Positions 32,978 to 60,901 of a DNA stretch of 64,000 nt are shown here, piece by piece. Position numbers and translations under genes: made by a program. Numbering within the stretch: the first letter of the stretch is position 1; the number at the start of each line of letters is the position of its first letter. The notes under the pieces are model-generated. The model saw only the letters and a program-made list of their open reading frames with translations. It had not been told where the DNA came from and made no database searches. Source of the stretch: Virgibacillus natechei (GTDB lineage Bacteria; Bacillota; Bacilli; Bacillales; Amphibacillaceae); NCBI RefSeq assembly GCF_026013645.1, contig NZ_CP110224.1, positions 1,054,001 through 1,118,000 of the forward strand. Reading direction: 5' to 3'.

Positions 32978-33016
32978 AACCCCTTTTTGCTGTATCCTAA
33001 ACAAGAAGGGGTTTTT
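32978..33016 (+). terminator. Terminator preceding structured repeat A
   Basis: AACCCCTTTTTG pairs with CAAGAAGGGGTT, then a T tract. Confidence 0.75.
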
Positions 33017-33021
33017 ATTTA

Positions 33022-33109
33022 GCAGTTAACAAAGTATAAAAACTTTCTTACTGCATAAGTGCAACTAAGGTTGTCACTTAAAGGCTTGGTGACAACCAAG
33101 TTTTCTAAT
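33022..33109 (+). repeat. Structured dispersed repeat, copy A
   Basis: An 88-nt element. Hairpin 1 is GCAGT/ACTGC with inner AAAGT/ACTTT; then comes the invariant core CTGCATAAGTGCAACTAAG. Hairpin 2 is GGTTGTCAC/GTGACAACC with loop containing AAAGGCTTG, and the end is CCAAGTTTTCTAAT. Copies B (48812) and C (60811) share core and ends. It ends 19 bp before the Dph6-like gene. Confidence 0.8.
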
Positions 33110-48811: not shown

Positions 48812-48899
48812 GCAGTTAACAAAGTATAAAAACTTTCTTACTGCATAAGTGCAACTAAGGTTGTCACCTAAAGGCTTGGTGACAACCAAGTTTTCTAAA
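48812..48899 (+). repeat. Structured dispersed repeat, copy B
   Basis: 88 nt, differing from copy A by one base in the hairpin 2 loop (CTAAAGG for TTAAAGG) and one near the 3' end. Hairpins and core are the same. Confidence 0.8.
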
Positions 48900-59878: not shown

Positions 59879-60136
59879 AGTGCCGCTGCGGAAAAACACT
59901 ACGCTTTCCGTGGGCTTGAGCTCAGCCTTCGACGCACAGGACGTGCTAGTGCAGGTGTTGCGACAGGACGTCGCGAACTTAACCTGCCTCAGAAAAAAGA
60001 AGTTCACTTTTTTCCTGTGGGGTCTTCCCACTGCGCATTCCCACAGGACAAGGAAGGCTACGGCAGCATTGCATCGCACGAAGAAAATTGGTCCTGAATT
60101 TTCGAGGAGTCTACGTGTTTTTCCTCCGCTAGATAG
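59879..60136. repeat. MITE-like repeat with inverted ends
   Basis: About 258 bp, more GC-rich than its surroundings. The left end GCTGCGGAAAAACACTACGC and the inverted right end TAGCGGAGGAAAAACACGTA share a GGAAAAACAC core. The inside has further dyads (TTCTTTTTTC region and CCTGTGGG/CCCACAGG). Open frames on both strands are by-products. Confidence 0.6.
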
Positions 60137-60810: not shown

Positions 60811-60901
60811 GCAGTAAAGAAAGTATATCCATACTTCTTTCTGCATAAGTGCAACTAAGTCAACTTGCGAAAGGGCTTGGCAAGTTGCCAAGTTTTCTAA
60901 T
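60811..60901 (+). repeat. Structured dispersed repeat, copy C
   Basis: About 91 nt. The core CTGCATAAGTGCAACTAAG and the end CCAAGTTTTCTAAT equal copies A and B. Hairpin 1 is GCAG...CTGC with AAGAAAGTAT/ATACTTCTTT; hairpin 2 is CAACTTGC/GCAAGTTG with loop containing AAAGGGCTTG. The stems differ from A/B on both arms but pair. It follows TTTTTATTG. Confidence 0.8.

Follow-up and report, generated by a model that had tools for sequence, protein, structure and literature searches.

A hairpin-structured repeat family in Virgibacillus natechei, probably a non-autonomous mobile element

Three copies of one element in the window

The 64-kb stretch of Virgibacillus natechei DNA analysed here (the window) contains three copies of a small structured element, designated A, B, and C (Table 1). 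The core CTGCATAAGTGCAACTAAG has three exact matches in the window, at 33051, 48841, and 60841, compared with a mean of 0.02 in shuffled sequence. From 5' to 3', the element consists of hairpin 1, a conserved 15-nt linker (ATAAGTGCAACTAAG), hairpin 2, and the tail AAGTTTTCTAA, with a total length of 87–90 nt. A preliminary description of this DNA had proposed a three-copy element, and all three copies were confirmed as complete members of one family. The starts it assigned are correct, but its span of 33022..33109 for the first copy is one base too long at the end. The pairing it gave for hairpin 2, namely GTTGTCAC with GTGACAAC in copies A and B and CAACTTGC with GCAAGTTG in copy C, was found as described; for hairpin 1, both arms are indeed altered in copy C, but copies A and B each carry one C–C mismatch. 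Because copies A and B differ at only 1 of 87 bases, the window copies represent only two independent stem types.

Table 1. Positions of the three element copies and their parts in the window
Feature	Position	Strand	Details
Copy A, complete, 87 nt	33022..33108	+	R1 101.4 bits, E 7.8e-19; sequence
Copy A, hairpin 1	33022..33054	+	GCAG...CTGC, extreme 5' end, one C–C mismatch
Copy A, linker	33055..33069	+	ATAAGTGCAACTAAG
Copy A, hairpin 2	33070..33097	+	Variable stem, loop around AAAGGCTT
Copy A, 3' tail	33098..33108	+	AAGTTTTCTAA
Copy A, T-rich left flank (target side)	33012..33021	+	Ends TTA, 3' of terminator-like hairpin
Copy B, complete, 87 nt	48812..48898	+	R1 104.0 bits, E 2.1e-19
Copy B, hairpin 1	48812..48844	+	
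Copy B, linker	48845..48859	+	
Copy B, hairpin 2	48860..48887	+	
Copy B, 3' tail	48888..48898	+	
Copy C, complete, 90 nt	60811..60900	+	Stems unlike A/B; R1 77.7 bits, E 6.7e-14
Copy C, hairpin 1	60811..60844	+	Both arms altered relative to A and B
Copy C, linker	60845..60859	+	
Copy C, hairpin 2	60860..60889	+	CAACTTGC with GCAAGTTG
Copy C, 3' tail	60890..60900	+	

Conservation of the fold and the question of RNA or DNA

Each window copy folds better than all 200 of its own shuffles, with z scores of -5.4, -4.7, and -3.5 for A, B, and C, respectively. The minimum-energy fold corresponds to the claimed hairpin 2 in copy B only, with copies A and C favouring an alternative pairing of the 3' half. 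An alternative fold of lower energy is available to copy A and to locus L006, in which the linker pairs with the first arm of hairpin 2 and a terminator-like hairpin forms towards the T-run.

Covariation was assessed in 70 copies picked for diversity and for a complete core and tail, and the invariance of the linker and tail in this set is therefore partly a matter of choice; relatedness between copies was left uncorrected in the controls. Double-sided changes were found in 107 cells, compared with a mean of 38.8 in shuffles (0 of 500 as high) and 50 or fewer in slid structures, and 83.2% of cells were paired compared with 76.4% in shuffles. Two coarser measures gave weaker signals, with 14 pairs changed on both sides versus 11.0 in shuffles (13 of 500 as high) and 32 further pair types versus 28.1 (12 of 500 as high). 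Pairing is retained in the distinct stem types GTTGTCAC, GCATTAACC, GCTTTCGCC, CAACTTGC, GTAG/CTAC, and GCAA/TTGC. Arms taken from the same copy also gave lower energies than swapped arms, both for hairpin 2 (-12.28 versus -8.87) and for hairpin 1 (-12.15 versus -9.21). The fold of the element is under selection, as had been claimed from the window copies: both stems covary across the 70 copies, and own arms outperform swapped ones.

A maintained RNA is expected to tolerate G–U far better than A–C. With isolated mismatches counted as independent events (middle linkage setting), 27 G–T and 31 A–C events were found in total, divided as 12 and 10 in hairpin 1 and 15 and 21 in hairpin 2. Raw counts of isolated mismatches showed more A–C than G–T in both hairpin 2 (51 versus 20) and hairpin 1 (21 versus 14), but this excess is largely gone once related copies are treated as single events, so no folding strand is claimed. 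The near-equal counts argue against individual copies being maintained as RNA. Neither the element copies of the window nor eight related loci gave an Rfam match at the gathering score, which bears out, for Rfam, the earlier statement that no named RNA family with this core was known.

These results bear on whether the element could be a structured RNA, such as a cis-acting leader, terminator, or small RNA, with its fold kept for a transcript function and its copies spread by another route. The strong folds of all three window copies and the likeness of a hairpin plus T-run to an intrinsic terminator are consistent with such a role, as is the setting of the copies: of 30 loci inspected, 29 have a called ORF downstream, which is codirectional in 26, with a gap of <70 nt in 8 of those 26. 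Upstream ORFs were codirectional in 19 of 29, making 45 of 58 together. Against a transcript function stand the G–T wobbles, which are not enriched over A–C, and the patchy presence of the element within genera. Because Rfam holds no match and one copy (L020) is inserted antisense within an ORF, RNA function is the weaker reading. We consider it very improbable, and the structured-RNA option raised in the preliminary description is disfavoured.

A named RNA family does occur elsewhere in the window, where a Bacillaceae-1 RNA (RF01690, 55.7 bits) lies within a repeat at 59933-59997 on the minus strand. The stretch 59922-59990 has nine similar places in the genome of the sister species (G002), with 91-100% identity, and RF01690 may be a dispersed repeat as well.

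Distribution, mobility, and insertion sites

The covariance model has 93 matches in the V. natechei genome (G000). Across the bacterial family the spread is patchy, with the element present in 28 of 120 genomes, and some hosts lie outside the family. Plasmids and phages searched with one query copy gave no match, nor did viral contigs searched with one exact pattern. Five matches reading GGGCATAAGTGCGACTAAG (L063, L065, L068, L071, and L075) belong to a different interspersed repeat and were excluded from the family.

Variants and relatives of the element were also seen. A subfamily with the linker ATAAGTGCGGGCTTTG in place of ATAAGTGCAACTAAG (L251, L275, L276, L280, and L338) occurs in G001 and G002 and once in V. 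natechei (L338). Longer or altered copies (L034, L045, L051, L061, L067, L070, L072, and L073) carry extra sequence in the loop of hairpin 2, often with an inner hairpin. Related families of mini-elements combine GAAAGTATAA in hairpin 1 with a terminal hairpin plus GAGTTTTTCTAA and with other linkers (L410:1390-1500, L139:3330-3450, L153, L199, and L413), and some of those with GAAAGTATAA abut or adjoin copies of the main family. At several O. halotolerans loci (L139, L141, L151, L158, and others), the element is embedded in a larger repeat whose outer flanks are alike from locus to locus, which suggests amplification of a nested insertion.

Comparison with the sister species revealed empty sites for five V. 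natechei copies (L006, L020, L027, L058, and L059). The junctions are clean for L006 and L020, show small flank differences for L058, and are uncertain by one base for L027 and L059; L059 is also without the 5' arm that hairpin 1 normally has. Target duplication is absent at all five sites, two of them being clean to the base. Two of the insertions fall within ORFs that are open in the sister species, with L006 cutting a 206-aa ORF and L020 lying antisense in a 214-aa ORF. One copy (L021) is common to both genomes, and several other sites have flanks too divergent to read. At L030 and L334, elements of the two species occupy the same intergenic region with differing second hairpins and unlike flanks, and these are perhaps independent insertions.

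Recent copies were found in other genomes, among copies fetched for their high scores rather than at random. In the closed genome G080, 4 of 12 such copies, each at a different site, share the same 89-nt sequence, a further 7 are 1-3 bases away from these, and one (L399) is distant. In G129, 6 of 7 fetched copies are identical and the other has a single base difference. Three units in V. litoralis abut exactly head to tail, with two more elsewhere. Taken together, the data favour mobile DNA over a structured RNA.

Insertion sites were characterised in 128 copies, obtained from 168 full-length copies in fetched DNA by removing 17 that lie in the larger O. halotolerans repeat and 23 whose left flank resembles the end of the element. 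The left flank is T-rich, with T at -3 (93.0%) and -2 (85.2%) and G (60.2%) or A (21.9%) at -1. Its last three bases are mostly TTR (TTG in 61 and TTA in 23, with TTT in 14), TTA being undercounted because the filter also drops plain T-runs ending in A. Window copy B, which follows TTT, is an exception. The right flank shows a mild bias to T at +1 (50.8%) and to A at +2 and +3 (49.2%). The right end of the element is itself a T-rich sequence similar to its left target site.

A strong hairpin lies upstream of 53 of 110 copies, whereas T-rich intergenic control sites have one in 27 of 110 cases; its distance from the insertion point ranges from 1 to 24 nt. Terminators are thus favoured as targets but not measured off; the idea that the element gauges its position from a terminator was ruled out, the distance not being fixed. 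The same figures are relevant to site-specific recombination at hairpin-plus-T-run sites, either integron-like or as proposed for the bcr repeats of Bacillus cereus, in which the element would be a gene-less cassette that ends in its own site and is inserted at other such sites. This would fit the left flanks, which often resemble the right end of the element, as well as the head-to-tail units and the excess of upstream hairpins; however, the scattered distances and the roughly half of copies without a strong upstream hairpin make it improbable.

Most of the strongest V. natechei copies are codirectional with replication (43 of 49, p 5.7e-8), as are 67 of all 93 but only 24 of the 44 weakest, on the assumption that replication starts at coordinate 1 and ends at the midpoint, and with gene orientation uncontrolled. 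In codirectional copies, it is the lagging-strand template that carries the written strand. Gene orientation could account for part of the bias.

The mobile-element option of the preliminary description is thus well supported as regards mobility itself, by empty sites, interrupted ORFs, identical copies, and tandem units. The folded single-strand route suggested with it is supported only indirectly, by the lack of target duplication, the constrained left flank, and the orientation bias.

Candidate enzymes and comparison with known systems

Searches for a mobilising enzyme covered Y1, Y2, and group II domains. Y1_Tnp was found in 12 of 13 element-negative genomes, and among 12 element-positive genomes it was lacking in two (G016 and G104) and present only as a fragment in a third (G113). 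A motif scan of 54 Y1 locus records, which form part of a larger set of Y1 matches and include several duplicated sites, found none bounded by the core and tail motifs of the element. An element-like motif lies within ~1.5 kb in 4 of the 54, with a full element in one (L078); L082 contains another repeat, and L312 and L380, which are one site, contain an isolated motif resembling the tail next to a broken gene. Y2_Tnp was no consistent partner (found in 1 of 16 genomes with the element and in 2 of 13 without it). An autonomous member was likewise not found: 33 of 216 distinct cores in fetched DNA lack a nearby tail, and none opens into a longer element over the 140 nt read for each, orphan right ends led only to mini-elements, and the ORFs between close element pairs in 15 fetched stretches were, by eye, ordinary-looking genes.

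The group II maturase domain GIIM was no consistent partner either, with matches, some of them fragments, in 8 of 14 genomes that contain the element, none in the other six, and matches in 8 of 13 that lack it. Some group II introns insert after the T-runs of terminators and into the lagging-strand template, and a reverse transcriptase of such an intron, retro-inserting the element at terminators with a group IIC-like choice of target, would suit the sites described above. The element is, however, too small for a ribozyme core, and with this distribution of GIIM such a route seems extremely improbable.

Short Y1 proteins of the RAYT (TnpA-REP) group are common in these genomes and could move the element as a REP-type repeat. 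Of the genomes sampled, G080 and G129 hold the freshest copies, and both have an open Y1 frame of 186 or 192 aa with an HUH motif; in closed genome G080, one Y1 gene and no Y2 gene were found. In G138, G104, and G113, which lack an open short Y1 frame, the copies are more divergent, with one pair a single change apart in G113, although these samples are small. The G080 and G129 proteins, however, share only 40% identity, similar short proteins occur in element-negative genomes, and hairpin 2 is preceded by neither a GTAG nor a CGTC tag. Ten records containing RAYT genes (nine distinct loci) were scanned and none was flanked by the element, and the two RAYT-like genes of V. natechei adjoin other palindromes by eye. 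Movement by RAYT is consequently a tentative possibility that we regard as unlikely. RAYT-like genes at L081, L082, and L313 seem by eye to be flanked by other palindromes (GGGACAGG...CCTGTCCC; GGTGCCTGTCACTTCCCG), of which a strict palindrome scan recovered one at L313 and none at L081 or L082.

The reading we prefer, with a probability of about 0.62, is that the element is a non-autonomous, hairpin-ended mobile DNA moved in trans, probably by an HUH-type enzyme. By analogy with IS200/IS605 or REP systems, its movement may be a single-strand, hairpin-dependent transposition. The written strand would become single-stranded on the lagging-strand template, allowing both hairpins to fold, and a trans-acting enzyme, most likely a single-strand transposase of the HUH type or a REP-type nuclease, would cut on the left after a T-rich site and on the right after the element's own end. 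The excised unit would then be joined to a new T-rich site. Compensatory change would be retained because only foldable copies move, with landed copies left to decay. Against single-strand transposition stand the enzyme searches, which gave no consistent candidate among Y1, Y2, and GIIM, including the uneven presence of Y1_Tnp and the low identity of the G080 and G129 proteins. The G–T and A–C counts also indicate neither strand, and hairpin 1 starts at base 1, which leaves no room for an internal left guide like that of IS608. A possible guide position is the CTAA that precedes hairpin 2.

A broader proposal, which we hold to be doubtful, is that the element and those relatives that carry GAAAGTATAA in hairpin 1 and end in GAGTTTTTCTAA or AAGTTTTCTAA form a wide class of chromosome-resident mini-elements of bacilli. 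Their movement, via single-stranded DNA in folded form, would depend on an enzyme that belongs to none of the known Y1, Y2, and group II classes and recognises the same type of T-rich site at both ends. If so, each landed copy would offer the next one a place to dock. Repeats scattered in many copies and showing strong paired change could easily be mistaken for a novel family of RNAs. In the present case, the empty sites, the interrupted ORFs, and the wobble test suggest that covariation arose from selection for moving folded DNA, which is a caution for covariation-based RNA discovery. The recent amplification in closed genome G080 makes the mobilising enzyme directly testable. A description of the element was not found in the databases or the parts of the literature that were searched.

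The family is a hairpin-structured mobile DNA whose membership of IS200/IS605 or REP is unproven. DDE-type MITEs are expected to have terminal inverted repeats and target duplication, whereas the element has ends of GCAG...CTAA and empty sites without duplication. Helitrons carry a hairpin ~11 nt before a CTRR end, and the right end of the element resembles those of Helitrons and IS91 in this respect, but it lacks a 5' TC, and Y2_Tnp occurs in only one of the 16 element-positive genomes.

Like REP/REPIN sequences with their RAYTs, the element is small, high-copy, hairpin-forming, mostly intergenic, and thought to be moved in trans. It differs in having two hairpins per unit and no flanking RAYT in the nine loci, and the foot of its hairpin 2 is CTAAG instead of the GTAG, GTGG, or CGTC tag of REP/REPIN. 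Among the copies fetched from G138, G104, and G016, almost all begin hairpin 1 with GTAG, but this GTAG is base-paired to CTAC.

Similarity to IS200/IS605 and to its palindrome-associated miniature derivatives, PATE, extends to a hairpin at each end, the lack of target duplication, and insertion 3' of a short left-flank sequence. The IS200/IS605 comparison suggested in the preliminary description shows agreement in the absent duplication and the short left-flank sequence, but not in a partner, no TnpA with matching ends having been found among the 54 Y1 records. In addition, the hairpin is subterminal in IS200/IS605 and hairpin 1 of the element is terminal, and the IS608 target is TTAC whereas that of the element is a looser, T-rich TTR. 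IS608 and ISDra2 are reported to use the lagging-strand template, and a survey of IS200/IS605 in Halanaerobium recorded no lagging-strand preference (10 of 22).

The closest unexplained parallel met in print, by description only, is provided by the bcr repeats of B. cereus, of which bcr1-bcr3 are reported to be restricted to the B. cereus group. Also by description only, the element resembles Bhal-1 of B. halodurans (74 bp, 36 copies), a repeat of similar size and copy number with conserved secondary structure in a related bacillus.
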